Positions 5,055 to 35,749 of a stretch of DNA of 64,000 bases are shown here, piece after piece. The position numbers and the translations under genes were made by a program. The stretch comes from Streptomyces sp. CB02959 (GTDB taxonomy: Bacteria > Actinomycetota > Actinomycetes > Streptomycetales > Streptomycetaceae), in NCBI RefSeq assembly GCF_002803155.1, contig NZ_NNBP01000038.1:1-64000 (forward strand), given 5' to 3'. How positions within the stretch are numbered: position 1 is the stretch's first letter; each line of letters begins with the position of its first letter. Under the pieces are notes generated by a model, which did not search any database, had not been told where the DNA came from, and was given only the letters and a program-made list of their open reading frames with translations.

Positions 5055-5069
5055 TGACCCTGGTGCCCT

Positions 5070-7000: not shown

Positions 7001-7173
7001 TTCTTGGGCTTGCTCGGGCCGGCCGGGTGACGAGCCTGTGACCGGCACCACGGCCGCGGTCAGCGGTATGTCCATGTTCTCCCCCCTGGCCTGCACGCAC
7101 GGGGCCATCGCGTCCCGATCCGGCCGACGGCCGGACCGCATTCGGCATATCGTCACCCCAAAGGAAGACGTTC

Positions 7174-8280: not shown

Positions 8281-8497
8281 AGGTCTCCGGCATACCGGTC
8301 CTCGCGACCCGATCGCCACGCAACCGGTCGAAGATGCAGTCGTAGACATCCAGGCGGCAGGCGCACCCCCCCAAAGCGGCCTGTTTGCGTGCGGGCAGAA
8401 CCGACTCTTCCGGCACCCGCAGAGCGCCTCGCACACGGTCGCGAAGCCCTGCGTCCCCCGAAGAAACAAGCCTGAAGAAACAAGAGAGGAAGAGACC

Positions 8498-8791
8498 ATG
8501 AAGGAGTTCCTGGTCGAGCTGACCGCCCGCGTGCCCGAGGGGACCGACCAAGCAGAAGTCGACCGGCGCCGCGCCGCCGAAGCTGTGCGAGCCAAGGAAC
8601 TCGCCGCCGAAGGTCACTTGTTCCGGCTGTGGCGCCCGGTCGGGGAGGACCGTGTCATCGGCGTGTGGCGCGCCGACGACGAGGCGGAGTTGCGTGAAAA
8701 GGTCCTCGGAAGCCTGCCCATGTGGCCTTGGGCGACGGCGGTAATCACCGCCCTGCAGCCGCACCCCAACGATCCGGACCTGACCGAATGA
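8498..8791 (+). CDS. Muconolactone delta-isomerase-like protein
   Basis: The 97-residue protein opens MKEFLVELTARVPEG and has the family core AKELAAEGHLFRLWRPVGED, then RVIGVWRADDEAELREKVLG and SLPMWPWATAVITAL. It follows GAGAGGAAG, 7 bp before ATG 8498. It resembles muconolactone isomerase and the small dimeric alpha/beta proteins derived from it. It is probably in an operon with the NmrA-like gene 158 bp downstream. It is only distantly similar to the copy at 477-785. Confidence 0.8.
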   Translation: MKEFLVELTARVPEGTDQAEVDRRRAAEAVRAKELAAEGHLFRLWRPVGEDRVIGVWRADDEAELREKVLGSLPMWPWATAVITALQPHPNDPDLTE

Positions 8792-8949
8792 GTCTTCTGG
8801 TGCGGCACCTCACTGCCACCCCTCGCTGTGCCAATCAGGACCACCGCACTGAAGCGGGAGTCCATGCCTTGAGGTTGAGAAACCGTTCGCTTACCGAACC
8901 GGAGACAGGGGTTCCGCGATCGACAGCGGCCCCGGACGGAGGCAGACCC

Positions 8950-9840
8950 ATGTCTGAGAAGAACCATGCCACGGTGGCAGTCACCGGGGTGACCGGGGCG
9001 CTGGGCGGCCGGATCGCGGCCCGACTCGCGAGCCACGGCGTCCCCCAGCTCCTCGTCGGACGCAGCCCCGACCGCATGCCCGAACTGCCAGGCGCCCAGC
9101 GGCGCGGTCCGGCCGCCTACGCCGATGCCTCCGCCATGCGCAAGGCGCTCGAGGGCGCGTCGACCCTCATCCTGGTCTCCGGACACCGCACAGGGCGCCG
9201 GCTGGAGGAACACGCCACCGCAGTCGAGGCCGCGATCGCGGTCGGCGTGGACCGGGTCCTGTACGTATCCCTCGTCGGCGCAGCGCCCGCCGCCACCTAC
9301 ACCAACGCCCGCGACCAGTGGCTCACCGAACAGTTCCTGGCAGGGGCCGGGATCCGCCACACGGTGCTCCGGGCGGGCTTCTACACCTCGACGCCGGCCG
9401 CCCTCGCCAACGAGGAGTTCGTCGTGAGCGGCCCCGCGAGCACCGGCCGGGCCGCCTTCGTCACCCACGAGGACATCGCCGACGTGATCACGGCCGTCGC
9501 CCTCGACGAGGGTCCCCGCTCCGAGCACGACGGCGCAACACTTGAGATCACCGGGCCCGAGGCCCTGACCCTCGACGAAGCGGTCAACAGGATCGCCGCA
9601 GCCACCGGCCGGCCCTACCGCTTCGAACCCGAAACCCTCGAGGACGCCTTCACACGGCGATGGCGCCTGGGCATGAGCGGGGAACAGATCGAGACCTGGA
9701 TCTCGTGGTACCAGGCGATCGAGAGGGGCGAGATTTCCGTGGTCACCGACGTCGTCCCCCGGCTCACCGGCTCACCAGCGACCCCGATCTCGGACGCAGC
9801 CTGGTGGCCCGCGCCGAAGACAGCGCGCGGTACCCGCTGA
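8950..9840 (+). CDS. NmrA-like NAD(P)-binding reductase (atypical SDR)
   Basis: The 296-residue protein begins with a dinucleotide-binding loop TVAVTGVTGALGGRIAARLA (GxxGxxG) and has the NmrA/QOR2-type order: YADASAMRKALEGASTLILV, VDRVLYVSLVGAAP, RHTVLRAGFYTS, and a C-terminal half that places the substrate. The catalytic YxxxK is not evident, as usual for the NmrA branch. ACGGAGG precedes ATG 8950. The IS1380 element starts 2-3 bp after its TGA, so the stop may be supplied by the insertion and a few native residues may be lost. Confidence 0.8.
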   Translation: MSEKNHATVAVTGVTGALGGRIAARLASHGVPQLLVGRSPDRMPELPGAQRRGPAAYADASAMRKALEGASTLILVSGHRTGRRLEEHATAVEAAIAVGVDRVLYVSLVGAAPAATYTNARDQWLTEQFLAGAGIRHTVLRAGFYTSTPAALANEEFVVSGPASTGRAAFVTHEDIADVITAVALDEGPRSEHDGATLEITGPEALTLDEAVNRIAAATGRPYRFEPETLEDAFTRRWRLGMSGEQIETWISWYQAIERGEISVVTDVVPRLTGSPATPISDAAWWPAPKTARGTR

Positions 9841-9842
9841 TC

Positions 9843-11493
9843 TCGCGCTTTGACGAAGCGGCCTGTCCGGCCACTGATCAAAAAAGCAGAAAGTGCCTCT
9901 GACCAGTGAGAATGAGGACTGTTGAGGTCTTTGTTCCCGCCGCCGTCGGAGGCACTTCCCAGGTGAAGAAGCGTATCGGGTCCTACCCGCGTGTCCGCGT
10001 CGAGGCCGGCGGGGCAGTGGTCTCGCGGGCGGGAGCCGTGCTGCTGGTCGACACAGTCCGCAAGACCGGGCTGGACCAGGCGATATCAACGGCGCTGTCG
10101 CCCTGGCGCAAGCCCCGCGCGGTGCACGATCCGGGCAAAATCCTGCTGGATGTGGCACTCGCGGTCGCACTCGGCGGAGACTGCCTTGCTGACGTGGGAA
10201 TTGTGCGGGCCGAACCGGGCCTGTTCGGGCCGGTGGCATCCGATCCGACCGTCTCCCGTCTCATAGACACCCTCGCCACGGCGGGAGACAAGGCCCTGGC
10301 AGCAGTCCGCTCGGCACGCGCTGAGATCCGTGAATACGTATGGAAGTTGGCCGGTGTCTCGGCGCCGAATGCCGACGGACAGGTGATCGTCGATCTGGAC
10401 GGGGTGTTCGTTCTTGCGCACTCCGAGAAGCAGGACGCCGCCGCGACGTGGACGAAGACGTTCGGGCATCACCCGCTGATGGGCTTCGTCGACCACGGAG
10501 CGGGCGGCAGCGGGGAGCCGGTGGCGGCCTTGCTACGGCCCGGCAACGCGGGCTCCAACACCGCCGCCGACCACATCGAAACCGCCCAACTCGCCCTGGC
10601 CCAGCTGCCCAAGAAGTACCGGCGCGGACGCCAGACGCTGATCCGCTGTGATTCGGGCGGTGGCACCCATGAGTTCGTGGCCTGGCTGACGAAGCGTGGC
10701 CGGTGGCTGTCGTACTCGGTCGGGATGACCATCACCGACGCCATCCACCAGGCCGTCCTCAAGGTTCCCGCGTCCGCCTGGACGGTGGCCGTCGAGCCCG
10801 ACGGCGAGGTCCGCGACTGTGCCTGGGTGGCTGAGCTGGACGGCGACGTGCTCAAAGACTGGCCCACGGGCATGCGGCTGATCGTCCGCAAGGAACGCCC
10901 GCACCCCGGCGCCCAGTTGCGCTTCACCGACCTCGACGGCAACCGGCTCACCTGCTTCGCGACCAACACGAAAGGAGGCCAGCTCGCCGACCTCGAACTG
11001 CGTCACCGCAGGCGGGCCCGCTGCGAGGACCGCATCCGTGCCGCCCGCGCCACCGGCCTGCGCAACCTGCCCCTGCACGACACGGCACAGAACCGGATCT
11101 GGCTGGAGATCGTGTCCCTCGCACTCGACCTCCTCGCCTGGATGCCGATGCTCGCGCTGACCGGCGAGGCCCGCCGCTGGGAACCGAAGAAGCTCCGGCT
11201 TCGGCTGTTCTCCGCCGCCGCCCAACTCGTCACCACCGCCCGCCGCCGGTACCTAAGATTCGCGGCCCACTGGCCCTGGACCCACCTCATCACGGACGCG
11301 ACCGAATGGCTCCGCGCCCTCCCGAACCTTGGCTGACCAGCAGATCCACCCGTCCCGACGAGCCCGAACCAGCCCTCCGGAACCGTGGAACCCGGCGCCC
11401 ACCCGACGCGACAGCCGGGCCCTCACCCTGCCCAACAAGCCGAAACGGCCCGCCAGATGAACCAACGAGCCGTCACGAAAGATCGAGGCTAAG
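9843..11493 (+). mobile_element. IS1380-family insertion sequence
   Basis: The element is about 1.65 kb around one intact transposase gene. The right end, read inward (GCTTAGCCTCGATCTTTCGT), closely matches the left end of the decayed copy at 6080. The left end near 9843 (CTCGCGCTTTGACG) is a weaker match, so this boundary is approximate. The right end lies inside a small minus-strand gene whose 3' part is lost; the left end lies against the NmrA stop codon. Whether a target duplication exists could not be decided. Confidence 0.75.
9963..11336 (+). CDS. IS1380-family transposase
   Basis: The 457-residue protein starts at GTG 9963 (KKRIGSYPRVRVEAGGAV). It has the family's N-terminal region and a DDE-type nuclease core: IVDLDGVFVLAHSEKQDAAA with the first Asp, LIRCDSGGGTHEFVAWL with the second, and a C-terminal NLPLHDTAQNRIWLEIVSLA that carries the Glu. 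The C-terminal YLRFAAHWPWTHLITDA is also typical. Length is normal and there is no internal stop, so it could be active. It catalyses cut-and-paste transposition of its own element. Confidence 0.9.
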   Translation: MKKRIGSYPRVRVEAGGAVVSRAGAVLLVDTVRKTGLDQAISTALSPWRKPRAVHDPGKILLDVALAVALGGDCLADVGIVRAEPGLFGPVASDPTVSRLIDTLATAGDKALAAVRSARAEIREYVWKLAGVSAPNADGQVIVDLDGVFVLAHSEKQDAAATWTKTFGHHPLMGFVDHGAGGSGEPVAALLRPGNAGSNTAADHIETAQLALAQLPKKYRRGRQTLIRCDSGGGTHEFVAWLTKRGRWLSYSVGMTITDAIHQAVLKVPASAWTVAVEPDGEVRDCAWVAELDGDVLKDWPTGMRLIVRKERPHPGAQLRFTDLDGNRLTCFATNTKGGQLADLELRHRRRARCEDRIRAARATGLRNLPLHDTAQNRIWLEIVSLALDLLAWMPMLALTGEARRWEPKKLRLRLFSAAAQLVTTARRRYLRFAAHWPWTHLITDATEWLRALPNLG

Positions 11494-11697
11494 CGTTGTG
11501 GAGAACTGCCGCGCGTCCCTGTGAAGCTCCGTATAGCAGCTGCGCCGCAGCTCGCGGTGCTCGCGGGCCTCCTCGAAAGCACGGGTCATCTCCAGCTCAC
11601 ATCGCTTGGCCCGGTCAGCACCACGCTGGGTAAGCAGCGCGCCCCCGAGCGTTCCCCCGACACCGGCGATCGCGATCAGTACCGCACCGACATCCAT
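11494..11697 (-). pseudogene. Small conserved Streptomyces protein truncated by IS1380
   Basis: From ATG 11697 the product is MDVGAVLIAIAGVGGTLGGA, then LLTQRGADRAKRCELEMTRA and a charged helix (FEEAREHRELRRSCYTELHR, then DARQFST). It consists of an N-terminal hydrophobic or membrane segment followed by a coiled-coil-like cytoplasmic helix. The native frame runs into the right end of the IS1380 element at about 11493 and stops 20 bp later, so the C-terminal half is missing. Full-length relatives are small proteins of unknown function. Confidence 0.65.
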
Positions 11698-11816
11698 CCG
11701 ATCACCCTAACGGCCATCCCCGTGGGAGCCGTTGGCGCCCGGTGCAAGAGGGGACGGCGGCTCGCCGGAAACGACGGATTCGGGCAATCCGAACGGGCAA
11801 TGCAGCGCCTTCGAGA

Positions 11817-11835
11817 GTTACGGGACAGCCCTTAG
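11817..11835 (-). repeat. Solo IS5-type inverted-repeat end
   Basis: Read on the minus strand it is CTAAGGGCTGTCCCGTAAC, nearly identical to the end at 5070-5127. No IS5 transposase adjoins it. The left end of the IS1182 element follows at the next base, so IS1182 inserted directly at this old IS border. Confidence 0.6.
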
Positions 11836-13676
11836 CTTGACTCTGTCGGGGATCTTGGAGTTGCCGAGGTCAGCTGCCCAGGGTTCGCCAGGACTTCAGC
11901 CGGGGTATCTCGCGCTGGTCGAGGTAGTCCTGGAAGGCAGTTGGTCGGCGGGGTGTGGGTGTTTCCTCGGCCGGTGGCAGTCCGCTGAGGCGCTCGATGT
12001 TGACGGCGATGGCCGTCAGGACGTGCTGGATGTGGGCCTTTCCCTGTCCTCGGTAACGGCAGCGCCGCATGCCGTGTCCGTGGGCGAACTCGTTGACCGT
12101 GCCCTCCACTCCGGAGCGGACCGCGTAACGGGTCTTCCACTCGGGCGTCTGTTGCTCGGTACGGACGCGAAGTTGCAGGTCGCGGAGCTCCCGCGGAGGA
12201 AAGCCCACAGTGCGCGCACTGTCTGCGGTGGTGGTGCACTGCGCGCGGGCCGGGCAGGGGCGGCACTGGCTCTTGGTGAACCTGGCCACGATCAGCGGGG
12301 CCGCGGTGGGTGAGGAGGTTGGGTAGGGGCCGTGCCAGCCCTGGCTGACCTGTCCCTGGGGGCAGGTGACCTGCTGATGGACGTAGTCGATGTGGAAGTC
12401 GTCCCGGGCAAAGCCCTCGTTTCGGCGGTGTTGGCGGGTGGGGTTGCTCCGGAGCGGCCCGGAGACGGTGACCTGGTGTTCACGGGTGGCTTGTGCCAGG
12501 TGGGGCAGGGAGGTATAGCCGGCGTCGACCAGGTGCTCGGCGGGCAGCAGCCCGCGACGCGCCAGGCGGGTGTGGATGCCGGGCAGGACCTGACTGTCGT
12601 GGGTGGTGGCCGCGGTGGTGGCCACATCCGTGATCACGTTGGGGCCATCGGGAGCACAGGTCTCGGTCAGATGAGCGGCGAACCCCTTCCAGCTGATGAT
12701 GTGTCCGTGCCGTGCATAGCGGGCCGAGGTGTCGTAGGGCGAGACGATCGCCCGGGACGAGGGCGGCAGTCCGGGCCCGCCTTCCTTCTCGGAGGTGCGC
12801 CAGCGCAGGTGCCCTGCGGAGTCACGGTGGTAGCTCTGCACCATGATCTGGCGCAGGGCCTGGAGGCGAGGGCCGGACGTGTGGTCTGTTCCGTGCCGGT
12901 GGAAGTGTTCCAGGAGCTGGACGGCGTCGTTTCCGGTGGCGAGGATCCTGGTCTTGGGCTTGGTGGGGTTCTTGCCCAGGCGGACCGGTCGGCCGTAGCG
13001 GAGCCCCCAGTCCTCGTCGACCAGATCGTCGAGCAGGTGCGGGGACGTGCCGGCGACTTCTTCGAGTGCGGCGCGGACCGCCTCGGTGATCAGCTCCAAG
13101 CGGGTCAGGTCACGCACCGCGGCCAGGACGTGGGTGGAATCGGTGCGCTGCGTGGTGCGCTCCCGCACCAGTCCGGCCTCCTTGAGACGGGCCAGTGCGA
13201 GGTCGAGGAGCCGGTCAGCACGGTCGTCTTCAGCGAGACGGTCGCGGAAGTCGGCCAGCACGCTGTGGTGGAAACCTGGATCGTCCAGCTCCATGGCCAT
13301 CGCGTACTTGAAGTCGATGCGGCAGCGAACCGCCTCGGCTGCCTGCCGGTCCGACAGGCCGAGCAGGAACTGCAGCACACAGACGGTGGCCAGTTGAGCA
13401 GGCGAGAGACCCGGGCGCCCGTCCTGCGGATACCAGTCGGCGAAGTCCTCGTCGCACCACAGCCCATCCAGCCGGTCGCGTACCCATATCGCCGTCGTGC
13501 CAGCCGGGTTGCTCGCCCGCGCAACCTGCGCGGTCAGAGGCGGGACTTGCTCACCGGAACGGGGGCGAAGGGACAACGGGCACCTCGACAGCTGCATCGG
13601 TCGGCGGAACGACCCGAGCATGCCCGTTGACCATGCTGCCGCACCGGGAAACTCCAAGATCCCCGACAGAGTCAAG
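11836..13676 (-). mobile_element. IS1182-family insertion sequence, complete
   Basis: The 1,841-bp element is bounded by perfect 27-bp inverted repeats at 11836-11862 and 13650-13676 (outer bases CTTGACTCTGTCGGGGATCT). It contains one intact transposase gene on the minus strand. No convincing target duplication is visible: TTAG on the left against GTAG on the right. It sits between a solo IS5-type end and a lactococcin-972-like gene, whose stop codon lies 11 bp outside the element. Confidence 0.9.
11870..13621 (-). CDS. IS1182-family transposase
   Basis: The protein of about 583 residues starts at ATG 13621 or 13597; neither has a clear ribosome-binding site. The N-terminal domain ([60 protein letters not shown] with the first catalytic Asp) is followed by [30 protein letters not shown] (second Asp), a zinc-finger-like [10 protein letters not shown], and [20 protein letters not shown] (Glu). 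All DDE residues are present and no stop interrupts the frame. An open frame continues upstream to 13990 but crosses the terminal repeat and is not part of the gene. Confidence 0.9.
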
Positions 13677-23905: not shown

Positions 23906-24178
23906 CCGCCGACGCCGTCCGGTTCACCGGCGTCCCCCGTCCCGGCGAACTCAGCGCACTGGGAGAGGGCTTGGCGGATCGCGGCGTGACCTTCCAGGAG
24001 AACTCATGGCGATGGCCGGGGAGACCACCGAGTACGAGCGGGAGAACGCCACCGGGCACGCCGCCGGGCATGAGGCCGGGCGCGCCACCGCTCCGCCGGG
24101 GGGAACCACCGGCTCCGACTCGCCCGGGACGTCGAGGTGGCCCGCGCCGCCCTCGACGAGCACGGTGCGCCCTGCTGA
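23902..24178 (+). pseudogene. Second small helical protein, apparently frameshifted
   Basis: ATG 23902 opens MTADAVRFTGVPRPGELSAL, GEGLADRGVTFQEN. After about 24000 the coding signal moves to another frame (MAMAGETTEYERENATGHAA), then near 24080 to a third (RDVEVARAALDEHGAPC, stop at 24178). Pieced together it is a helical protein of about 92 residues, like the preceding gene. The two shifts make it a pseudogene as sequenced; sequencing error in GC runs cannot be excluded. Confidence 0.4.
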
Positions 24179-24239
24179 ACAGCCCCGCGACCCGCCCCCG
24201 CACGCACCCGGCACCGCGACGCCGGAACGAGGAACGCTC

Positions 24240-27200
24240 ATGGCCGACATGCCGACCGAAGACCCAGCAGGCGACGCCGGGACGCCCCAGCGGAGCCCGA
24301 GTCCACCGACCCGGAAACAGCACCGTGACACCGTGCCCCCGAAGCCGACGAGCCCGCCGCCCCGCCAACAGGACCCGGACGCCGCCCCACCCCGACCCAC
24401 GAACCCGCCGACCCGCGTCCAACACCCCGAGGCCGTCTCCCCGGACGCCCCCACCCGCCCCAACCCGCCCCGCGTCGACCCGCCCACCCGCCGCGAGGCC
24501 GGCAACACCGCGCACCGCGAGTTCCCACCGGGCCTGCGGGACCGCTACGAACCCCACGGCGTGGCCGGTGCCGGCAGTGAGGGCACCGTCTGGCACGTGC
24601 GGCGGCTGGCCGACGGCTCCGACGCGGCGGTGAAGGTCGCCCACCCGGGCCAGATCATGGACATGGACACCCTCGAACATCTCGCGACACCGGAGTTCCG
24701 GCGCCACGTGCCCCGTATCCACGACTTCGGGGAGATAGCGGTCGGCCCCGCCGTGTGCGGCTGGGTGGCGATGGAGTACCTGCCCACGACCCTCGACGAC
24801 CACCTCGCCCGGCAACTGCGCGGCGACCAGCGGCGCGACGACCGCCCCCGGACCGAACACACCGTCCGCGAACTGGCCGATCTCCTGGACTTCTGGCAGA
24901 CCCGCATCGACCGCAACCCACTGGACCTGAAGCCCGCCAACATCCTCGTCAGGCAACGCCCCGACGGGCCACCGGAGTTCGTCGTCGCGGACTTCGGCGG
25001 CATCGCCAAGTTCACCGCGAGCCAGAGCTACCGCGACTTCCAGATCACCGCCCTCTACATGGCGCCCGAACAGATCGTCCACCAGAACCTCAAGGCCACC
25101 CCCTGGTGGACTCTCGGCCTGGTGCTGTACCAGGTGTTCACGGGCCGCCCGCTGTACGTCCTCGACGACGACGCCCGGATCACCGACGAGGCATGGACCC
25201 GGGGACTGATCCTGCACAGCGAGGTCAACCTCGGCGCGGTCACCGACGCCCGGCAGAACCTGCTGCTCCAGGGCCTGTTGACCAAGGACCCCGACGACCG
25301 GTGGACCGCGGCCGAGATCCACCGGTGGCTCAAGGGCGAGACCCCGGACGTCGTCCGGCCCTCCGCCCCCGACGCCCCGACCGCCGCCCGGCATGCCAAC
25401 CGGCCGATCACCTTCCGCGGCCAGGCCCACCACGAAGCCGAGAGCCTGGCCGCGGCCATGGCCCAGCACTCGGAGGCGGCCGCGAAGTGGCTCATGAAGG
25501 AGGGCGGGCCGCGCCTGGCGGCCTGGCTGCGCGAGGACCTGTCGGACACCGCCTACGACAGTGAGCAGCTGCTCACCCTCAACCGGGGCCGGGACGGGCA
25601 GCGCCTGGTGCGCGCCGCGGTCGCCGCGCTGGCCTTCGTCGCCGTCTTCGCGCCCACCGCGACCCCGCAGTACCGGGGGCGGCGGGTGGACGCGGAGGGC
25701 ATCGCCCGGATCGCCCAGGGCGGCGAGGCGGTCGGATTCGTCGAGGAACTCCTGGCGGCCTCCGTGCCCACCGTCGCCGCCGGCTTCGTCTGCGGCCACG
25801 AGCAGTGCACCGAGGGACGCTGCCGGGTACTGCTCACCCTCGCCGACGAACTGCCCCGCACCCTCGACCGGATCCGCGCCGAGGCCCGCACGCTCAAGCG
25901 CCGCGGCGACCCCCAGAACGACGGCGCCCTGAACACCTATGAGACGAACTTCGCCTACGGCCTGGCCGCGGCCCTGATCGTGCACCCCGGCGACCGCCGG
26001 CGGGCCCTGGTGCCGCTGGCCGGACTGCCGGGCGTACTCGCCCCGCTGGCCGCCAAGGCGCCGGTGGCCCTCCTGGTGGTCCTCGCCCACTTCGGCGCAG
26101 TGCGCCACCAGGCGCTCGCCGTACTGCGCCGCCGCCGGGAGGACGCCGGATTCCTCCGGAGGTGGGCGGACCTGCACCGCCGGGCGGCAGCCGGGGATCC
26201 GGCCACCGTGCCCGGGCGGGCTGCCCTGATCGCCGCCGCCGCGCTGCTGCCCCGGGTGCTCAGGGCCGATGCGCTCGGCACCGACCACCAATTGGCCTTC
26301 CGCGAGTGGTGGTCGGCCACTCGGATCCCCCTGGCGCAGCGGCTGATCGCCGCCGCCACCCTCTGCACCCTGTTGTGGCTGCTGATCTGGTCCGGCGCGG
26401 TGTTCCGGTCCGTCTACGACGCCGACCTCGGCTGGGCGGCACTGTGGCCCGACGACGCCCTGGTCGGCTCGCTCACCCGTGCCGCGAACGCCGCCATCAC
26501 GACCCAGGCCGGGTTGTGTGCGGTGGCGGTCGCCGGTGCGCTGGCCTTCGCGGCGGCCCCCACTCGGCTCAACCGCCCCCTGCTGCTGGCCGTCGCGCTC
26601 CTCGCCGGCTACCTCGGCTACGCCCGCCCGCACCTCCCCCCGCTCGACCTGCTGCACCTGGGCGACGACCTGGCGGAGCGCCTGCGCCACCTGGAGGGCG
26701 GCTGGCGCAGCGGGAACGGCCTGGTGGCCCTCGTCGTCTTCCCGCTGGGCTGCGTGGCGTTGGGCGGCCTGGCCCACTGGCTGCTGGGACAGGCCCGCGC
26801 GGCGGAGGAGACCCAGGCCGGACTGCGCCGCGACCGGGCGGAGCGCCGACGGGTCCGGGCCGGGCTCCCCGCGCGCCCGCACTCCGATGCCCGGCAGTGG
26901 CGGAACGGGGCGGACGGCACCCGGGACCGCGTCCAGTTCGGCCTGGCCGCGCTGCTGACCCTGATCACCGTGCTGTGGGCGGCCGTCGAGATCCGGGTCG
27001 CCCTCCTCAGCGGGGAACACCACACTCTCGCCTCCTGGGGGACCGGTCAGCAGGGCGCCTCCTACCAGTCGCAGTACCTGCTGGTCTGCGCCGCGATCTG
27101 TGCCGCGGCGGCGCTGTGCCGACCGGCGGGCGCCCGCCGGGTGGTGGGGTGGGCCGTCGTCGCCGTCGCGGCGCTCGGCCTGCTGCCGCCGCCGGTCGAA

Positions 27201-27362
27201 CCGGCCCAGGCGCTGAGCGTGCCGGTACTGCACGACTTCTTCGCCGACCTCGCCGCCACCTGGGGGCACGGCGCGTTCTGGGCGGCGCTGCTGCTCGCCC
27301 TGCCGCTGAGCGTGTACGCGGGTGGCTTCGCGATACGCCGCACCCGGCGTGCCGGGCGATGA
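24240..27362 (+). CDS. Serine/threonine-kinase-like protein with multi-pass membrane C-terminus
   Basis: The 1,040-residue protein starts at ATG 24240 behind GAGGAA. About 100 Pro/Arg-rich residues precede a kinase domain (about 101-366). It has a glycine loop GVAGAGSEGTVWHV, DAAVKVAHP (the ATP Lys), the catalytic loop NPLDLKPANILV in which the usual HRD His-Arg is replaced, VADFGGIAKF (DFG) and YMAPEQI. A Cys-rich patch CGHEQCTEGRC lies near 517, and about eight hydrophobic segments occupy residues 700-1,030. It should sit in the membrane with the kinase in the cytoplasm. The altered HRD leaves activity open, although Asp, Lys and Asn are kept. Confidence 0.8.
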   Translation: MADMPTEDPAGDAGTPQRSPSPPTRKQHRDTVPPKPTSPPPRQQDPDAAPPRPTNPPTRVQHPEAVSPDAPTRPNPPRVDPPTRREAGNTAHREFPPGLRDRYEPHGVAGAGSEGTVWHVRRLADGSDAAVKVAHPGQIMDMDTLEHLATPEFRRHVPRIHDFGEIAVGPAVCGWVAMEYLPTTLDDHLARQLRGDQRRDDRPRTEHTVRELADLLDFWQTRIDRNPLDLKPANILVRQRPDGPPEFVVADFGGIAKFTASQSYRDFQITALYMAPEQIVHQNLKATPWWTLGLVLYQVFTGRPLYVLDDDARITDEAWTRGLILHSEVNLGAVTDARQNLLLQGLLTKDPDDRWTAAEIHRWLKGETPDVVRPSAPDAPTAARHANRPITFRGQAHHEAESLAAAMAQHSEAAAKWLMKEGGPRLAAWLREDLSDTAYDSEQLLTLNRGRDGQRLVRAAVAALAFVAVFAPTATPQYRGRRVDAEGIARIAQGGEAVGFVEELLAASVPTVAAGFVCGHEQCTEGRCRVLLTLADELPRTLDRIRAEARTLKRRGDPQNDGALNTYETNFAYGLAAALIVHPGDRRRALVPLAGLPGVLAPLAAKAPVALLVVLAHFGAVRHQALAVLRRRREDAGFLRRWADLHRRAAAGDPATVPGRAALIAAAALLPRVLRADALGTDHQLAFREWWSATRIPLAQRLIAAATLCTLLWLLIWSGAVFRSVYDADLGWAALWPDDALVGSLTRAANAAITTQAGLCAVAVAGALAFAAAPTRLNRPLLLAVALLAGYLGYARPHLPPLDLLHLGDDLAERLRHLEGGWRSGNGLVALVVFPLGCVALGGLAHWLLGQARAAEETQAGLRRDRAERRRVRAGLPARPHSDARQWRNGADGTRDRVQFGLAALLTLITVLWAAVEIRVALLSGEHHTLASWGTGQQGASYQSQYLLVCAAICAAAALCRPAGARRVVGWAVVAVAALGLLPPPVEPAQALSVPVLHDFFADLAATWGHGAFWAALLLALPLSVYAGGFAIRRTRRAGR

Positions 27363-28163: not shown

Positions 28164-29450
28164 ATGCCCGTTCAACAATTAACGGAACTCATACGCTTCG
28201 TGCGTCGCAACTCACCCTTCTATCGGGAGCTGTACGCCGGCCTCCCGGACCGCGTGGACGAGTTGACGGACTTACCGGTCGTCCCGCACGACGCATTCTG
28301 GCGAGCCAACACGCCACGCAACAACAGCCTTTTGACTGGACCGCTCGACGAGGCGGTGGTTTTCAAGAGTGGCGGCACCACCGGTGCACCGAAGTTCTCC
28401 GTCTATACACGTGAAGAATGGCGAGAATTCACCTCCGCGTTCGGTGGAGGACTCGTCGAAGCCGGGCTCCGGCCCGGACATCGGGTCGCCGACCTCTTCT
28501 ACGCGGGTGAGCTCTACGCAAGCTTCACCTTCATCCTGGACTCCCTCCACCGGACACCCGTCGCCAACGTCCGGCTGCCGATAGGCGGCGGCGCACCGCT
28601 CGAATCGACCGTGCACACGCTGGCGGAATTCGACGTCGACGTCATCGCCGGCACCACCACGACACTCTGCGGCCTTGCCGACCACCTCGTACGGAACGGG
28701 CACCAACTCCCCGACGTGCGGATCCTGTTCTTCGGCGGCGAGGGACTCTTCGAAGACCAGCGGCCGCTGCTCCGCAAGGCGTTCCCTTGCGCGGAGGCCC
28801 GCTCCATCGGCTACGCCGGTGTCGACTCCGGGCTGCTCGGACAGGCCGTCCCGGGACCCGACCCCCGCATCCACCGCGCGTTCACGCCGTACACCGTCGT
28901 CGAGATCCTCGACGAGCACACCGGTGAACCGGTCACCCGCGAGGGCGTTGCCGGCCGCGTCGTCGTCACCGACCTGCGCCGGCGGCTGATGCCGATCGTC
29001 CGGTACCCCGTGGGCGACCGGGCGGAGTGGACCGACGCCGCCGCCGGGCACTTCCGCATCCTCGGCCGGGCCGAGGAAGGCGTCCGCATGGGCGCGGTGT
29101 CCCTCTACACCCAGGACGTGCACGACCTGGTGCGCGCAGCCGACCCGACCGGCCAGGTGATCGGCACACAACTCGTGGTGCGCCGCTGGGACGGCCGGGA
29201 CGGACTGGTCCTGCGGCTGGCGGTGGACGGGGACCCGACCGCCGCCGGGGACGGGGAGCCGAGCGACCTCGGACACCTCGCCGCGGCCATCGCCAAGGAG
29301 ATCCTCGCGGCCCGCCCGATGTACGCCGAGGAGGTCGAAGCGGCCCGCATCCACCCGATCGCCGTGGAGTGGGTCCGGCACGACGGACTCGTCGTCAACG
29401 CACGGACCGGCAAGCTGCTGCGGGTCATCGACGAACGGCCGCACTCATGA
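28164..29450 (+). CDS. PaaK-like adenylate-forming enzyme
   Basis: The 428-residue protein belongs to the phenylacetate-CoA-ligase-like branch of the ANL superfamily. It has VVFKSGGTTGAPKFSVYTRE (ATP P-loop), VADLFYAGELYASFTFILDS, VRILFFGGEGLFEDQRPLLR, RLMPIVRYPVGDRAEW (the ribose-binding D) and a C-terminal NARTGKLLRVIDERP with the mobile-domain Lys. It would make an acyl-adenylate from a carboxylic acid and may pass it to CoA, an amine or a carrier. It is the first gene of a five-gene operon and overlaps the transporter by 4 bp. It is homologous to the C-terminal half of the fifth gene. Confidence 0.8.
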   Translation: MPVQQLTELIRFVRRNSPFYRELYAGLPDRVDELTDLPVVPHDAFWRANTPRNNSLLTGPLDEAVVFKSGGTTGAPKFSVYTREEWREFTSAFGGGLVEAGLRPGHRVADLFYAGELYASFTFILDSLHRTPVANVRLPIGGGAPLESTVHTLAEFDVDVIAGTTTTLCGLADHLVRNGHQLPDVRILFFGGEGLFEDQRPLLRKAFPCAEARSIGYAGVDSGLLGQAVPGPDPRIHRAFTPYTVVEILDEHTGEPVTREGVAGRVVVTDLRRRLMPIVRYPVGDRAEWTDAAAGHFRILGRAEEGVRMGAVSLYTQDVHDLVRAADPTGQVIGTQLVVRRWDGRDGLVLRLAVDGDPTAAGDGEPSDLGHLAAAIAKEILAARPMYAEEVEAARIHPIAVEWVRHDGLVVNARTGKLLRVIDERPHS

Positions 29451-30778
29451 CCGCCACCTCGACCCCGCGCCGTCTCCCGGTGGTCCTGCGCAACCGGGCC
29501 TTCGGTGCGGTCTGGGTCGCACAGGTCCTCACCCAGGCCGCGGGCCGGATGTTCCAGGTCGGCGTGGTGTGGTGGCTGGTCGGCCACGCCGTCGGCGGCG
29601 CAGGCGACCGCGGCCTCGCCTCGGGGGTGTTCCTGGCGGTGAGCACGCTGCCCGCGGTGGCGCTCGCCCCGCTGGTGGCCTCCGTCATCGCCCGCTGCCC
29701 GCACCGCACGGTGCTGGGCGCGTCGGCCGCGCTGGCGGGCCTGGTCGCCGCCGCCACCGCCGGATGGACGTACCTCGGCTCGCCGCCCATGGTGGTGGCC
29801 TACGGTGCCGCGCTGCTGCTGGCCGGCTGCCAGGCCCTCTTCGACCCGTGTCTGACCACGTCCGTTCCCGCACTCGTCGACGACGCCGACATCGAGGCCG
29901 CGACCGGGTTCGAACTCGCCACCCAGTCACTGGCCGGCCTGGCCGGCGGGCTGCTCGGACCCCTCGTGGTGGACGCCTGGGACCTGACGGGCATCGTCTC
30001 CGGGTGCGCCGGCGCCTATCTCGCCGCGGCCGCTTTGGTGGCCGTCACCCGCTTCCCCCGAAGCGGCGCGGCGGAGGACGACCAGGCCCCGGCCGACGGC
30101 GCACCGCCCCGGCGGACGCTCCGTCAGATCCTGGCGGACCACCCGTTCATCCGGCGGGTGCTGCTCTGCTTCGCCGCGGTCAACGTCTTCTCCACCGCCC
30201 TCTACGTTGTCATGCCCCTGTATACGCGCGCCGTGCTGCACGCGCACGGTTCCACCGCGGCCGCGTTGGAGACGGCGCTGGGCATCGGCACCCTGCTCGG
30301 CTCGTTCAGCGGCGCGCGCCTGCCCGGATCGGCCACCACCGTCGGCGGGGCCTGCCTGGCACTGCTGGCCGTGGCACTCGGGACACCGGGCCTGCTCACG
30401 GACCGGAGCGCGGTCGTCGGAGCGCTGGTCGTCGCGGGCTGGTGTGTGGGGGCGATCGGCGTGCGGTTCGTCGCGCTGTTCCAACGACTGGTCCCGGCCG
30501 CGGACAAGCCCGGCTTCTTCGCCGTGATGCAGGCCCTGCTCGGCGCGACCTTCCCGCTGTCCTCCCTGTTCTTCGGCGCACTCGGCGACCACCTGTCGCC
30601 GCGGACCCTGTGCCTGATCCAGGCCGTCGGACTCCTCCCGCTCGCCGCGGCGCTGTGGTGGACCGGGCGGCGCGCGGACGCACCCCCGGAGGCCGCCGAA
30701 CGCGCCCCGGCCGCGTCCGGCCCGCCCGCACCCGCTCCCGCGACCGCCGGCAGCACGCCGCTGGGGGAGGCCCGGTGA
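29447..30778 (+). CDS. MFS transporter
   Basis: The 443-residue membrane protein has 12 likely segments and an MFS-3/enterobactin-exporter-like pattern (RNRAFGAVWVAQVLTQAAGR at the N-terminus; ALGIGTLLGSFSGARLPGSA in the second half). The last 40 residues are Pro/Ala-rich and cytoplasmic. The start ATG overlaps the upstream stop and the end overlaps the next GTG, so translation is coupled. Its place inside the operon suggests export of the pathway product or self-protection. Confidence 0.85.
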   Translation: MTATSTPRRLPVVLRNRAFGAVWVAQVLTQAAGRMFQVGVVWWLVGHAVGGAGDRGLASGVFLAVSTLPAVALAPLVASVIARCPHRTVLGASAALAGLVAAATAGWTYLGSPPMVVAYGAALLLAGCQALFDPCLTTSVPALVDDADIEAATGFELATQSLAGLAGGLLGPLVVDAWDLTGIVSGCAGAYLAAAALVAVTRFPRSGAAEDDQAPADGAPPRRTLRQILADHPFIRRVLLCFAAVNVFSTALYVVMPLYTRAVLHAHGSTAAALETALGIGTLLGSFSGARLPGSATTVGGACLALLAVALGTPGLLTDRSAVVGALVVAGWCVGAIGVRFVALFQRLVPAADKPGFFAVMQALLGATFPLSSLFFGALGDHLSPRTLCLIQAVGLLPLAAALWWTGRRADAPPEAAERAPAASGPPAPAPATAGSTPLGEAR

Positions 30779-31989
30779 CCACCACCCTCCGCCCCGCCGC
30801 ACCCCAGGACATCGCCGAACTACGGCAGTTGTACTTCGAGGTGTACGGCCACGGCTACCCGGTGGCCCTCGGCAGCGACCCCACCGAGATGCACCGGCTG
30901 ATCACCGACCCGCACAGCCACTGGCTCACCGCACGCCGCACCGACACCGGCGAACTGGCCGGCTCCGTGGTCGTCCAGACCGACCCGGGCAACCGCGTCG
31001 GCAAACTCGTCGGTCTCGCGGTCCACCCGCGCCAACGCCAGTGCGGACTGGCCAGCCGACTGACCGGAGCGGTCACCGCCGACGCCTTCGCCGCCGGCAC
31101 CCTCGACTCCATCCACACCACCGTCCGTATGGTCACCCAGGCCCCGCAACGCGTCGTCGCCCGCAACGGATACCGGCCGCTGGGCCTGCTGCCCAACGCC
31201 GCCGACGTCTCCGGCTGCGAGACCCTGGCCCTGTTCGCCTGCTACGCCGACGGCGTCCTCGAACGCCGGGAACCGGTGACCGCCGTTCCCCGGGCCCTGC
31301 TGCCCCTGCTGGAAGCGGCCGAGGAGAGCATCGGCATCCCCTGCACCGCGGTCCTTCCCCTCACCGGCGCGGACATTGCTCCGCTGCTGCCGCACCCGCG
31401 CGGCGCCCCGACGGCCGACTCGTCCCCGGGCGCCCTCCTGACCGCCCCCGTGGCCGCCCGGCCCACCACCCGCACCCCCATCGAGGTGATCACCGCACCC
31501 GGCTTCGTCCGCCGCCGCTTCCGCGAGCTGTTCCCCGACCCCGCGGGCGCCTACTCGCCGCTGCGGACCCCGAACACGGTACTGACGACGCCGGACGGCG
31601 AGTTCGAGATCTACGCCGACCTCGATCCGGCGGCCGGCAGCTGCGCCCTCGTCGCCGTGCACCCGTACCCGTCGGCCGCCACCCGGGCCCTCGACTCGCT
31701 GATGACCGCGCTCACCCGGGCCGGCGCCGACTACGTCGAGACGCTGGTGCCGCTGTCCGACACCGCCGCACTGCACGCCTTCCTCTCCGCCGGCTTCGTC
31801 CCCAGCGCCGGCTACCCGGCCATGCGCCGGGTCGGCGACCGCTTCCACGACTACGTCGTCCTCTCCCGCACCGACCGACAGATCGACTTCCGGACCACAG
31901 CCGTCAGCCCGCTGATCCAGCCGTACCTGAGCGCGTACCTGACCGCCTGGACGTCGACCTACCTGCCCCAGCACGAGGTTGTCCGATGA
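30775..31989 (+). CDS. Tandem GNAT-domain protein
   Basis: The 404-residue protein starts at GTG 30775 behind GGGGGAGG. The first GNAT domain (about 1-170) reads TLRPAAPQDIAELRQLYFEV and GKLVGLAVHPRQRQCGLASR, the latter matching the acetyl-CoA loop region (Q/RxxGxA/S). The second (about 230-390) has FVRRRFRELFPDP, SCALVAVHPYPSAATRALDS and HAFLSAGFVPSAGYPAMRRV, without a clear acyl-CoA loop. The first half may acylate an amine of the pathway and the second half may be structural. It resembles no characterised enzyme that I can name. Confidence 0.7.
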   Translation: MTTTLRPAAPQDIAELRQLYFEVYGHGYPVALGSDPTEMHRLITDPHSHWLTARRTDTGELAGSVVVQTDPGNRVGKLVGLAVHPRQRQCGLASRLTGAVTADAFAAGTLDSIHTTVRMVTQAPQRVVARNGYRPLGLLPNAADVSGCETLALFACYADGVLERREPVTAVPRALLPLLEAAEESIGIPCTAVLPLTGADIAPLLPHPRGAPTADSSPGALLTAPVAARPTTRTPIEVITAPGFVRRRFRELFPDPAGAYSPLRTPNTVLTTPDGEFEIYADLDPAAGSCALVAVHPYPSAATRALDSLMTALTRAGADYVETLVPLSDTAALHAFLSAGFVPSAGYPAMRRVGDRFHDYVVLSRTDRQIDFRTTAVSPLIQPYLSAYLTAWTSTYLPQHEVVR

Positions 31990-33149
31990 ACCCGCATCTC
32001 GCCCCCGTCGAGGTCCCCGACCCCGCGGCCCTCGCCACCGTCCAACGCCTCTGCGACCTCCCGTCGCCCTACACCACCGGGCCCGAGGCCGACGCCCTGT
32101 TCGCCGCCGCGATGGCCGAGTCGCACGCCTGGCACGCCGAGCGCTCCCCGCTGTTCCGCGCCCTCCTCGACGACACCCCGGAGGCCCCGGCCCCCACCGT
32201 CGGCGCGCAGACCCGCACCCCGCTCCTGCACGCCAACTTCTTCAAGCGCCACGAAGTGCTCTCCATCCCTCGCGAGGAGGTCTTCCTGCACCTGACCTCC
32301 TCCGGCACCACCGGCCAGAAGTCGCAGATGTTCTACGACCGGTGGACCATCCGCGCCGCCCAACGCATGGTCGCCCGCATCTTCGACCACTACGGCTGGA
32401 TCACCCCCGACCAGCCCGTCAACTACCTGCTCTACAGCTACGAGCCGGCCCCCGACGTGCGCCTGGGCACCTCCTTCACCGACAACTACCTCTGCGACTT
32501 CGCGCCCGCCCGGCACACCACCCACGCCCTGCGGCACACCGGCACCGGCCACGCTTTCGACGTGCACGGCTGCATCGACGCCCTGCACCGCTACGCCGAC
32601 GACGGCCTGCCGGTCCGGATCCTGGGCTTCCCGGCGTTCCTGCACTTCACCCTGGAACGCATGCGGGCCGCCGGCATCCCGCCGCTCCAGCTCCCGCCGG
32701 GCTCCCTGGTGCTCCTCGGCGGCGGCTGGAAGGGCCACGCCGACCGGCAGATCGCCAAGGAGGAGTTCTACGACGGGGTGACCCGGCAACTCGGCATCCC
32801 CCCGGAGCGGATCCGGGACACCTACGGCTCCGTCGAACACTGCGTGCCGTACGTCGAGTGCACCCACCACCGCCTGCACGTGCCGGTCTGGTCCCGCGCC
32901 GCGGTACGGGACACCCGCACCCTGCAGCCACTGCCGTACGGCCGACCCGGCTACCTCCACCTGGTCTCCCCGTACATCACCTCGGTGCCGGCGCAGAGCG
33001 TCGTCATGGGCGACCTGGCCTCCCTGCACCCCGGGGACGCGTGCCCCTGCTCCCTGGCCACCCCGTGGTTCACGATCCACGGCCGCGCCGGGGTGAGCCG
33101 CAACCGCAGCTGTGCGGTGGCCGCCGCAGAACTCCTGAAGGGAATGTGA
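31986..33149 (+). CDS. LuxE-like acyl-protein synthetase
   Basis: The 387-residue protein matches the LuxE family (acyl-protein synthetase of the fatty-acid reductase complex). It has PLLHANFFKRHEVLSIPREE, EVFLHLTSSGTTGQKSQMFY (the SSGTTG phosphate loop), VNYLLYSYEPAPDVRLGTSF, GSLVLLGGGWKGHADRQIAK and RIRDTYGSVEHCVPYVECTH. LuxE activates a carboxylic acid as acyl-AMP and transfers it to itself and then to LuxC. The next gene encodes a LuxC domain, so the same relay is likely. The acyl chain is unknown. The start overlaps the upstream stop. Confidence 0.85.
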   Translation: MNPHLAPVEVPDPAALATVQRLCDLPSPYTTGPEADALFAAAMAESHAWHAERSPLFRALLDDTPEAPAPTVGAQTRTPLLHANFFKRHEVLSIPREEVFLHLTSSGTTGQKSQMFYDRWTIRAAQRMVARIFDHYGWITPDQPVNYLLYSYEPAPDVRLGTSFTDNYLCDFAPARHTTHALRHTGTGHAFDVHGCIDALHRYADDGLPVRILGFPAFLHFTLERMRAAGIPPLQLPPGSLVLLGGGWKGHADRQIAKEEFYDGVTRQLGIPPERIRDTYGSVEHCVPYVECTHHRLHVPVWSRAAVRDTRTLQPLPYGRPGYLHLVSPYITSVPAQSVVMGDLASLHPGDACPCSLATPWFTIHGRAGVSRNRSCAVAAAELLKGM

Positions 33150-35749
33150 TGATCAGCGAACTCCACTTCTGGCAGGGCGAGTTCATCGCCGAGACCGAGG
33201 CGGCCGAACGCCTCGCCGAGCTGCCGGACCTCGTCCGACGCGCCCTGGCGGAGCCGCTGTCCACCGAGACGGTCCTGATCGCCTGCGACACCGTCAGCCG
33301 CGCCCTCCAGCAGCCGCACAGCGACGTCCACACCCGACTCCTGGCCCAACTGACCGGCCCCGCAGGCGCGACACCCCCCGATCCCGAGGAGGCCGCCGCC
33401 ACCCTCGCCGAACTCGCGGACGCCCTCGCCCGCCCGGCCCTGGAGCGCAAACTCCGGCGCGAACTCGGCGGCCCGCGCCCGGAGCGGTTCACCCGCCCCG
33501 ACGCCCGCGAGACCGTCTACGAGGCATGGGCCCCGGTGGGTCTGCTCGTCCACATCGCCCCCGGCAACGCGGCCGCGGTCGCCTCGCTGAGCGTGGTGGA
33601 GGGCCTCCTCGCCGGCAACGTGAACGTGCTGAAGACCAGCAGCAGCGACACCGCGCTCGCCCCGCACCTGCTCGCCGAACTGGCCGCCGCCGACCCCACC
33701 GGAGCCGTCGGCCGCCGGATCGTCGCACTGCGCTTCCCGTCCAGCCGACAGGACCTGATGCGGCTGATGTGCGAGCCCGCCGACGCGGTGGCCGTGTGGG
33801 GCGGCGAGGACGCCGTGCGGGGCGTCGCGGCCCTCGTCCCGCCCGGCTGCCGGCTCGTCGAATGGGGCCACAAGATCTCGTTCGCCTACCTGACCCGCGA
33901 GGCCGCCACGGACCGGGCCGCCCTCACCGCGCTCGCCTCCGACGTCTGCCGGGCCGAGCAGCAGGCGTGTTCCAGCCCGCAGGTCGTCTACCTGGACGTC
34001 GAACCGGACGCCGAGCCGGACACCCAACCGGACGGTGCCGCCCCGGTCGCCGCCACCCGCGAGGCGCTCTTCGCCTTCGCGGAGCAGTTCGCCGCCGTAC
34101 TGGACGAGGTCTCCGCCAAACACCCCGGCCCGCGCGGCGCGGACGACGCGGCCGAGCAGGCCGAGATCACCACCACCGAACTGGTCGCCCGGGCCGAGCA
34201 GCACCTCGGCCTGACCAAGGTCCTCACCGCCGACGACGGGAGCTGGCGGGTCCTCGCCGACACCCGCCCGGCCCTCACCGCCTCCCCCCTCCACCGCACC
34301 GTCTGGATCAAACCCCTGCCCCGCCGCGACATCCTCGCGACCCTGCGGCCCATGCGCCGCTACCTCCAGACCGCCTCCGTGGCCGGCACCCGCGCCGACA
34401 TCGCCCAGCTGTCCCGCACGCTCATCGCCGCCGGCGTCCAGCGGATCACCCCGCTCGGCGCCATGCTCGACAGCTACCACGGCGAACCCCACGACGGCGT
34501 CTACGCCCTCCAGCGCTACAGCCGACGGGTAAGCGTCCAGGCCACCGGCGCCGAATTCGCCACCACCCCGTGCCTGGACGACCTGATCGCCCCCACCGCC
34601 CCGCCCGCCGCGCCCACCGGCCCGCTGATGGACAAGGCGGCGGCCCAGGCCCGACTGAGCTCCCTCGCACCGCACCACGCCCAGCTGTACTTCCGCAGCG
34701 GAGGAACCACCGGCACGCCGGCCCTGTCCGTCTTCACCTGCGACGACTACGACACGCAGATGCGCGCGTCGGCGCACGGCCTGCTCGCCGCGGGCTTCGA
34801 CCCGGCCCACGACCGCGCCGCCAACCTCTTCTACAGCGGCAGCATGTACGGCAGCTTCATCAGCTTCTTCTCCATCCTCGAACGCCTGGGCGCCACCCAG
34901 ATCCCGATGGCCGCCGGCCCCGACCACGAGGCGATAGCGGAGGCCCTCGTCGAGTACCAGGTGGACACCCTCTTCGGGATGCCGTCCTACCTGTGGCAGC
35001 TGTTCCACACCCAAGCCGAGCGACTGCGGTCCTACGGCGGCATCCGCAAGGTGTTCTACGGCGGTGAGCACTTCACCGCCGAACAACGCCGCATCCTCAC
35101 CGAGACCTTCGGCGTGCAGGTGATCCGCTCCGCCGCCTACGGAAGCACCGACCTGGGCCCGCTCGGCTACCAGTGCACCCACGCCCGGGGCACCGAACAC
35201 CACGTCCTGACCGACCTGCACACACTGGAGATCCTCGACCCGCAGGAGGACCGCCCGGTACCCCAGGGCCAGCCGGGCAGGCTCGTCTTCACCACCCGCA
35301 CCAGGGCAGGCCAGCACCTGGAGCGCTACCAGATCGGCGACCTGGGCCGCGCCGTCGACGGGGTGTGCCCCTGCGGTAGCCACACCCCGCGCATCGAACT
35401 CCTCGGCCGCTACGGCGAGGTGTTCCGCATGGGCACCTACCACTTCAACTACCGCCGCTTCACCCAGGTCGCCGAGGAACACCTCCAGTACCGCGGTGAG
35501 CTGCAACTCGTCCTGACCAACGAGACCGGCCGCGAACACCTCACCGTCCGCCTCGACGACCGCTACGCCCCCGAACCGGACACCGCCCGCACGGCACTGC
35601 TGGCCCACATCCCCGAACTCGGCTCCGCGGTCGGCCCGGAGGCCCTCCTGACCTGCACCGTCGAAACCGCCCCCACGCCCGCCTTCGAACGCACCCCCAC
35701 CAGCGGCAAACTCCGCACCGTCATCGACCGCCGGACGCCGACCGCCTGA
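33149..35749 (+). CDS. LuxC acyl reductase fused to a PaaK-like adenylation domain
   Basis: The 866-residue protein starts at ATG 33149 (TGATG overlap). Residues 1-470 are LuxC-like: EAWAPVGLLVHIAPGNAAAV, LLAGNVNVLKTSSSDTALAP, and the catalytic Cys274 in EQQACSSPQVVYLD. LuxC reduces acyl-enzyme to aldehyde with NADPH. Residues 495-866 form a PaaK-like ANL domain (AQLYFRSGGTTGTPALSVFT; RKVFYGGEHFTAEQRRILTE; VCPCGSHTPRIELLGRYGEV, a Cys pair; RTPTSGKLRTVI with the final Lys). Joining the acyl-activating and reducing modules in one chain is unusual, since luminous bacteria use separate LuxE and LuxC. Confidence 0.85.
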   Translation: MISELHFWQGEFIAETEAAERLAELPDLVRRALAEPLSTETVLIACDTVSRALQQPHSDVHTRLLAQLTGPAGATPPDPEEAAATLAELADALARPALERKLRRELGGPRPERFTRPDARETVYEAWAPVGLLVHIAPGNAAAVASLSVVEGLLAGNVNVLKTSSSDTALAPHLLAELAAADPTGAVGRRIVALRFPSSRQDLMRLMCEPADAVAVWGGEDAVRGVAALVPPGCRLVEWGHKISFAYLTREAATDRAALTALASDVCRAEQQACSSPQVVYLDVEPDAEPDTQPDGAAPVAATREALFAFAEQFAAVLDEVSAKHPGPRGADDAAEQAEITTTELVARAEQHLGLTKVLTADDGSWRVLADTRPALTASPLHRTVWIKPLPRRDILATLRPMRRYLQTASVAGTRADIAQLSRTLIAAGVQRITPLGAMLDSYHGEPHDGVYALQRYSRRVSVQATGAEFATTPCLDDLIAPTAPPAAPTGPLMDKAAAQARLSSLAPHHAQLYFRSGGTTGTPALSVFTCDDYDTQMRASAHGLLAAGFDPAHDRAANLFYSGSMYGSFISFFSILERLGATQIPMAAGPDHEAIAEALVEYQVDTLFGMPSYLWQLFHTQAERLRSYGGIRKVFYGGEHFTAEQRRILTETFGVQVIRSAAYGSTDLGPLGYQCTHARGTEHHVLTDLHTLEILDPQEDRPVPQGQPGRLVFTTRTRAGQHLERYQIGDLGRAVDGVCPCGSHTPRIELLGRYGEVFRMGTYHFNYRRFTQVAEEHLQYRGELQLVLTNETGREHLTVRLDDRYAPEPDTARTALLAHIPELGSAVGPEALLTCTVETAPTPAFERTPTSGKLRTVIDRRTPTA

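Follow-up and report, generated by a model that had tools for sequence, protein, structure and literature searches.

A five-gene Streptomyces operon that probably directs the synthesis and export of leupeptin or a very close peptide aldehyde without a nonribosomal peptide synthetase

The window analyzed in this work, i.e., the whole stretch of 64,000 nucleotides from Streptomyces sp. CB02959 (contig NZ_NNBP01000038.1, positions 1 to 64,000), harbors at 28164-35749, on the plus strand, five open reading frames, hereinafter genes A to E, each of which overlaps the next by one or four bases. The comparative analysis of these genes and of their organization suggests, with a probability that we put at about 0.85, that leupeptin (acetyl-Leu-Leu-argininal), or an N-acyl-peptide aldehyde very similar to it, is the compound which the operon makes and exports, with no nonribosomal peptide synthetase (NRPS) involved. 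It is at least as probable that the product is a peptide aldehyde of the leupeptin type, and it is likely, with somewhat less assurance, that this strain makes leupeptin itself, with exactly its amino acids. Indeed, an N-acetyltransferase, two ligases, an ATP-dependent acid reductase and an exporter represent the gene set expected for leupeptin. The operon is real and well conserved, its function can be named and it probably belongs to the known leup kind; judging from sequence, it resembles a streptomycete version of the NRPS-independent leup pathway. The genes and their junctions are the following:

Gene A, 28164..29450, plus strand: PaaK-like AMP-forming ligase of 428 amino acids, proposed to be a peptide-bond-forming ligase and to correspond to the third gene in the enteric operon
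Gene B, 29447..30778, plus strand: drug-efflux-type major facilitator superfamily (MFS) transporter of 443 amino acids, the proposed exporter
Gene C, 30775..31989, plus strand: tandem-GNAT N-acyltransferase of 404 amino acids, proposed to N-acetylate the first leucine
Gene D, 31986..33149, plus strand: LuxE-family adenylating acyl-protein synthetase of 387 amino acids, proposed to activate the peptide acid, with Cys376 as acyl-carrying residue
Gene E, 33149..35749, plus strand: LuxC-type reductase (residues 37-459, Cys274) followed by a PaaK-like ligase (about residues 502-866), proposed to be the aldehyde-forming reductase plus the second ligase
A/B overlap, 29447..29450, plus strand: ATGA
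B/C overlap, 30775..30778, plus strand: GTGA
C/D overlap, 31986..31989, plus strand: ATGA
D/E overlap, 33147..33151, plus strand: TGATG, with one base in common

An earlier sequence-only reading of this DNA had described five genes overlapping at every junction (ATGA, GTGA, ATGA, TGATG), and its coordinates and junctions proved to be exact. It had also recognized two acid-activating modules together with a LuxE and a LuxC: the enzyme classes stand, and what it blurred is the nature of gene E, which is a LuxC-PaaK fusion; since E carries a C-terminal PaaK half, the adenylating modules are three in all (A, D and the C-terminal half of E). Pfam assigned MFS_1 to B, Acetyltransf_1 to C, LuxE to D, and LuxC plus AMP-binding to E, and detected no NRPS among the five genes; the match of A to Pfam AMP-binding is weak (26.9 bits, cut-off 29.9), and A matches the NCBIfam PaaK-type profiles at 9e-15 or better. 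A scan for promoters and terminators gave matches no more numerous than in shuffled sequence. The genome to which the window belongs is of 10.36 Mb and its nearest relatives, judged by the operon, are streptomycetes.

On the basis of enzyme class, the following order of reactions can be proposed. The GNAT protein C would acetylate leucine; A and the C-terminal half of E would form acyl-AMPs and couple these to the amino group of the residue that follows, yielding the acid Ac-Leu-Leu-Arg; D would then adenylate this acid and hold the acyl group as a thioester on Cys376; the LuxC half of E would take the group over on its Cys274 and use NAD(P)H to convert it into the aldehyde; lastly, B would export the peptide aldehyde. 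The route from a carboxylic acid to an aldehyde, with N-acylation and export, that had been suggested from the letters alone is supported.

The conservation of the block was assessed on 85 loci, namely the window, L003-L069, L103, L114, L117, L118 and L141-L153; left out were L070-L081 (no PaaK-like match nearby), L001, L002 and L082-L101 (short or duplicate), L102 (a near copy of L114), L104-L113, L115-L116, the later short loci, and L119-L120. Relatives of E occur in 79 named loci. D and E are present in all of the 85 loci and a separate A gene in 81, the raw A count of 84 including L036, L058 and L062, where A is matched best by the PaaK half of E. The search for conserved neighborhoods, proposed by the sequence-only reading, did retrieve the block repeatedly: the order A-B-C-D-E recurs in 48 loci, which places the arrangement far beyond chance, and is followed by D-E-A-C (20 loci), C-D-E-A (six), B-C-D-E-A (five) and other orders (six, three of which, L036, L062 and L067, are cut by contig ends). 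The main orders are circular permutations of each other; the exception among the loci with all five genes is L045 (D-E-A-C-B), in which the match to MFS is a weak one (38.9 bits). When the genes of 80 loci were clustered, the operon families (A and E forming one family) were found in 80, 79, 61 and 61 loci, and the next family in 15. Since no further family is widely common in the flanks, the block seems to be self-contained, with substrates probably drawn from primary metabolism.

The pair that would reduce the peptide acid consists of D and of the LuxC half of E, and D adjoins E in 85 of 85 loci. Cys376 of D, near the C-terminus, is invariant across all 85 loci and has its aligned equivalent in four of four true LuxE proteins, a Cys which is the acyl site of LuxE. 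In E, both Cys274 and His241 are invariant (85/85); the catalytic Cys of LuxC had already been pointed out from the sequence. The D profile matches the LuxE of PDB 7xc6 (E=1.2e-39) and the LuxC half of E matches the 7xc6 LuxC (7.6e-15). The predicted structure of D adopts a PaaK-like fold (2y27, Z 27.4, root-mean-square deviation (rmsd) 2.7, 306 aligned residues), the last 18 residues, Cys376 among them, being modeled with low confidence; 7xc6 is not among the 50 fold-comparison matches listed for D, though the sequence search found it. The enzyme that reduces leupeptin acid to leupeptin is described in PMC7714073 as using ATP and NADH, which is the activity expected of D plus LuxC.

The same matches to the LuxC and LuxE of Pfam, and that of D to the LuxE of 7xc6, might suggest a lux-like pathway to a fatty aldehyde, or a decayed lux operon. 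This is highly improbable. The NCBIfam equivalogs NF052244 and NF052251 are missed, at 70.8 versus 550 bits for D and 75.4 versus 750 bits for E, and the D tree places true LuxE, together with a second LuxE-like gene of the enterics, far from the D proteins. Moreover, none of luxA, luxB and luxD is among the five genes, as the sequence-only reading had stated, and such a pathway would leave the GNAT protein and two ligases unexplained. A lux-type fatty aldehyde pathway was rejected on equivalog scores, tree and gene content; the scores (71 and 75 bits) likewise speak against the block being a lux relic.

A different origin of the aldehyde was an early lead. According to PMC10179220, in grixazone biosynthesis the AMP-binding GriC and the reductase GriD form an aldehyde from 3,4-AHBA (3-amino-4-hydroxybenzoic acid), and E unites just such AMP-binding and reductase domains, so that the LuxC-PaaK fusion might be an aryl carboxylic acid reductase turning a benzoic acid into its aldehyde. 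We consider this quite unlikely, and the lead was dropped: the constant partner of LuxC is D, not the PaaK half. D adjoins E in every one of the 85 loci compared, and D-LuxC pairs occur without any PaaK-like gene being detected, namely in L119 and L120 (Streptomyces) and in ten of the 12 Bacillota loci L070-L081 (in the remainder, D and LuxC lie 6.4 kb apart in L073 and LuxC is alone in L074, a 3-kb piece). Thus D, the neighbor of LuxC even where no PaaK-like gene is detected, looks like the partner of the reductase. In addition, the flanks contain no other widely conserved gene family. A scan of ten genes of the window showed none for aromatic-acid (3,4-AHBA) synthesis, a search that did not extend to the remainder of the genome.

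Some of these stand-alone pairs deserve mention in their own right. In L120 (3930-11721), the pair (9146-11721, minus strand) lies close to an NRPS module (3930-7049) with condensation, AMP-binding and carrier domains, and it is possible that this locus makes an NRPS peptide aldehyde with a stand-alone reductase pair. The second Streptomyces pair (L119, 9289-11879) has as neighbors an FMO-like gene and a nucleotide-sugar dehydrogenase, and its genome (G326) has a full-length E elsewhere too. In the D tree, the D proteins of both pairs lie beside that of S. alboflavus.

As for peptide-bond formation, A shows an A3-type motif (KSGGTTG at 68) and Lys417 in an RTGK context. Near the C-terminus, a GK motif has its Lys in 83 of the 84 aligned rows of A and in 78 of the 85 rows of E; of the seven E rows devoid of it, four have no PaaK half there, two are broken and L012 differs. 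The LuxC-PaaK fusion is present in 80 of the 85 loci; among the other five, L049, L062 and L067 are cut short where the contig ends, L153 bears a deletion, and the LuxC of L065 is unfused. The ligase half of E falls into the sequence class of the PaaK-like ligases NatL2 and AjiA1 (PDB 6siw, 6wuq), which probably form bonds to nucleophiles other than CoA. We take A and the C-terminal half of E to be the candidate peptide-forming ligases. A second full-length LuxC-PaaK fusion, 52-53% identical, exists in two Streptomyces genomes (G299:C1:8116292-8118823 and G168:C48:3037-5577). In a Bacteroidetes metagenome-assembled genome (MAG; L065:620-4405), A, D and the unfused LuxC stand in a row, the fused PaaK half being missing.

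The tandem GNAT nature of C, also part of the sequence-only reading, holds: Pfam detects the first half alone, and the second is backed by a fold alignment. In the predicted structure (mean predicted local distance difference test (pLDDT) score 85), there are many GNAT structures to which residues 1-147 correspond (Z about 15), and the alignment with the tandem GNAT 2wpx extends over residues 1-349 (Z 13.8, rmsd 5.8, 237 aligned residues). C is present in 82 of the 85 loci. The transporter B matches MFS_1 (4.7e-20) and TIGR00900, and an MFS match was found in 54 of the 85 loci, six non-streptomycete ones being weak (39-76 bits).

The leup operon (leupABCD) is reported as the leupeptin pathway of Photorhabdus, Xenorhabdus and Klebsiella (Li et al. 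2020, as described in PMC11480411, PMC8283571 and PMC10548850); PMC11480411 describes the P. luminescens cluster as the source of a leupeptin-derived pyrazinone and the Klebsiella one as yielding leupeptin and its lysine analogue. When D was searched in 392 genomes of the enteric family to which G1047 belongs, 23 matched, and in 15 the identity to the D of L117 was 64-100%. The corresponding 15 loci (L117, L118, L141-L153) have the order D-E-A-C, with E or A disrupted in L142 and L153. Of ten genomes of this set that were tested, four (G1275, G1364, G1428, G1486) also have a true luxE (637-661 bits), with a luciferase gene beside it in two of two genomes checked; this adjoining luciferase gene indicates that those genomes are Photorhabdus-like. 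The block occurs both in such genomes and in the leupeptin producer S. roseus (L028). Further LuxE-family genes, encoding about 400 amino acids (129-139 bits) and being neither luxE nor D, are found in the Xenorhabdus- or Photorhabdus-like L166, L167 and L172-L175.

The lengths agree as well. From the leupA forward primer at 315403 to its end at 321183, leupABCD of K. oxytoca CAV1374 spans 5,781 bp according to PMC8283571, and the four-gene D-E-A-C operon of L117 spans 5,778 bp (7007-12784). The same source gives a leupA-to-leupB amplicon of 1,235 bp; as it reaches into leupB, the first gene would be about 1.14 kb long, in keeping with the first gene of the D-E-A-C operon. We infer from this that leupA corresponds to D, leupB to E, leupC to A and leupD to C, a set whose members are all adjacent in the window. 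The product can, with fair confidence, be given a name, which the sequence-only reading had been unable to do: the block matches the leup kind of cluster, at 17-56% protein identity to the enteric forms. A match of the whole block to a characterized cluster, which that reading had seen as speaking against its own view, is found in leup, the characterized Klebsiella sequence itself lying outside the comparison. The reverse complement of the leupB primer encodes EQLKDHA and residues 19-25 of the L149 E protein read EQLKETL, a likeness that is suggestive only. Leup-type D-E-A genes also reside on conjugative plasmids of Salmonella enterica (L114:4329-10087 and L102:8827-13704), a GNAT gene after A being annotated in one of the two only (CP054717).

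The decisive evidence comes from S. roseus ATCC 31245, a leupeptin producer according to PMC10548850. Its contig L028 carries A-B-C-D-E with all frames open and with start codons in frame at positions that would permit equal coupling by four 4-base overlaps; the window proteins are identical to its own at 66% (A), 61% (B), 52% (C), 74% (D) and 65% (E). In the D tree (47 rows, with several long branches flagged and the deep order unsettled), the window and S. noursei group together (100/99) and S. roseus falls within the same streptomycete clade (100/99), whereas the enteric and Photorhabdus-like D proteins and one from Pseudomonas form a separate clade (100/100). The possibility that S. roseus makes leupeptin by an NRPS was considered and rejected: no NRPS thioester-reductase domain (TIGR01746) was found over the cut-off in its draft genome (best 66.5 versus 213.35 bits), an absence that, in a draft, is no proof, and the best PF07993 match is an epimerase-type protein. 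The same search in the window's own genome gave three TIGR01746 matches, all on other contigs.

Several points weigh against the assignment to leupeptin and have to be set beside this evidence. Besides the draft state of the S. roseus assembly, PMC10548850 (2023) calls Streptomyces leupeptin NRPS-made, citing Maxson 2016. The likeness to K. oxytoca leupABCD (CP011636.1 315353-321183) is one of gene number and lengths. The published leup primers find no match in the 15 enteric loci (at least five mismatches); they have no match at three or fewer mismatches in L102, and their best in other loci is five to nine. The Klebsiella leup sequence was not met in the plasmid or E. coli collections, nor in the sampled class, order, family and genus genomes, 1935 of 2000 genomes being used; in the sample used for locating the enterics, 26 of 369 genomes were unscored and, among the matches listed, no rpoB exceeded 76% identity. 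Moreover, C is weakly similar between streptomycetes and enterics (17-23% identity over the alignment), and the window is 52-56% (D), 38-40% (E) and 35-38% (A) identical to the enteric forms. With identities as modest as these, the cap or the amino acids may differ, and a change of substrate is conceivable for the ligases, which are 37% (A) and 39% (E) identical to those of the Photorhabdus-like L144.

These figures bear on the one alternative of some weight, distinctly less probable than a leupeptin product, that the same machinery makes another N-acyl peptide aldehyde, with a different acyl cap, amino acids or chain length. In its favor, ligases A and E are only 37-39% identical to a Photorhabdus-like form and about 65% to S. 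roseus, and enteric leup operons are described in PMC11480411 as also giving lysine and homoarginine analogues or derivatives. However, the S. roseus block is conserved at full length and in the same gene order, and in the D tree the window shares a single streptomycete clade with S. noursei and S. roseus.

The block is far from confined to this strain. In the Streptomyces sample, a full-length E is found in 44 of 392 genomes (about one in nine), G246 having a 53%-identical form only. Bacteriovorax and its relatives, which are predatory, hold the block as well (L046, L048, L050-L054, L061, L064, L066, L068), five loci of this group having a weak MFS match and the order B-C-D-E-A; a predator that makes protease inhibitors would merit attention. 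An archaeal MAG of the Methanomassiliicoccaceae harbors D and a LuxC-PaaK fusion (L058:9446-13022), where contamination of the bin is possible. On a Streptomyces plasmid (L103:13455-14822), one further gene comes after the block, and then three whose annotation is family I36 peptidase inhibitor. In the window itself, the upstream neighbor (24006-27362, plus strand) encodes a protein of 1118 amino acids with a protein kinase domain and belongs to no widely shared flank family, and a transposase with a DDE_Tnp_1_4 domain lies at 9906-11336 (plus strand).

One may speculate, on a scenario that taken as a whole is rather doubtful, that a single mobile and self-contained peptide-aldehyde cassette, its gene order circularly permuted by lineage (A-B-C-D-E, D-E-A-C, B-C-D-E-A), has spread among Actinomycetota, Pseudomonadota, Bdellovibrionota and Thermodesulfobacteriota (in partial form also to Bacteroidota and one archaeal MAG); that its ligases have changed substrate, so that streptomycetes and predatory Bacteriovorax relatives would make protease-inhibitor aldehydes not yet isolated; and that it is this route, rather than an NRPS, which yields the leupeptin classically known from Streptomyces.

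Leupeptin, a standard laboratory protease inhibitor, was described from actinomycetes in 1969 (PMC8546846). In the literature, among the matches listed, no leup-type cluster is assigned to Streptomyces and leup genes come from gammaproteobacteria only (Li et al. 2020 may already mention Streptomyces). If the proposal is correct, the leupeptin genes would be named in the genus of the original producer, and the old ATP- and NADH-using leupeptin acid reductase activity would receive its genes; the block would also provide a probe to mine about one in nine of the sampled Streptomyces genomes, and other bacteria, for new protease inhibitors. Aoyagi 1969 reportedly lists further leupeptin producers. 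The interest of the block lies in offering testable leupeptin genes for the genus of discovery, and in showing how widely, over several phyla, the cassette has travelled.

Compared with known systems, the operon shares with GriC/GriD an AMP-binding enzyme and a reductase giving an aldehyde, and adds to them the LuxE-like D, the GNAT protein, a second ligase and an exporter. With the LuxC-LuxE fatty acid reductase of 7xc6, it has in common a LuxE-type adenylating partner with a Cys in its C-terminal region and a LuxC thioester reductase with its own Cys; it differs in the fusion of LuxC to a PaaK-like ligase, in lacking luciferase and thioesterase and in its low equivalog scores. NatL2 and AjiA1 act on aryl substrates, whereas those of the ligase half of E would be peptides. 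The S. roseus block has the same five genes, order and coupled junctions, with proteins 52-74% identical to those of the window. Lastly, the enteric leup operon likewise presents four biosynthetic genes (probably D, the E fusion, A and C), no NRPS, a transporter (adjacent to leup in Klebsiella) and the same operon length; the two differ in gene order (A-B-C-D-E in the window versus D-E-A-C), in the exporter gene, which is inside the window operon, in the longer tandem GNAT protein of the window (404 versus 294-311 amino acids) and in protein sequence, about 17-56% identical.

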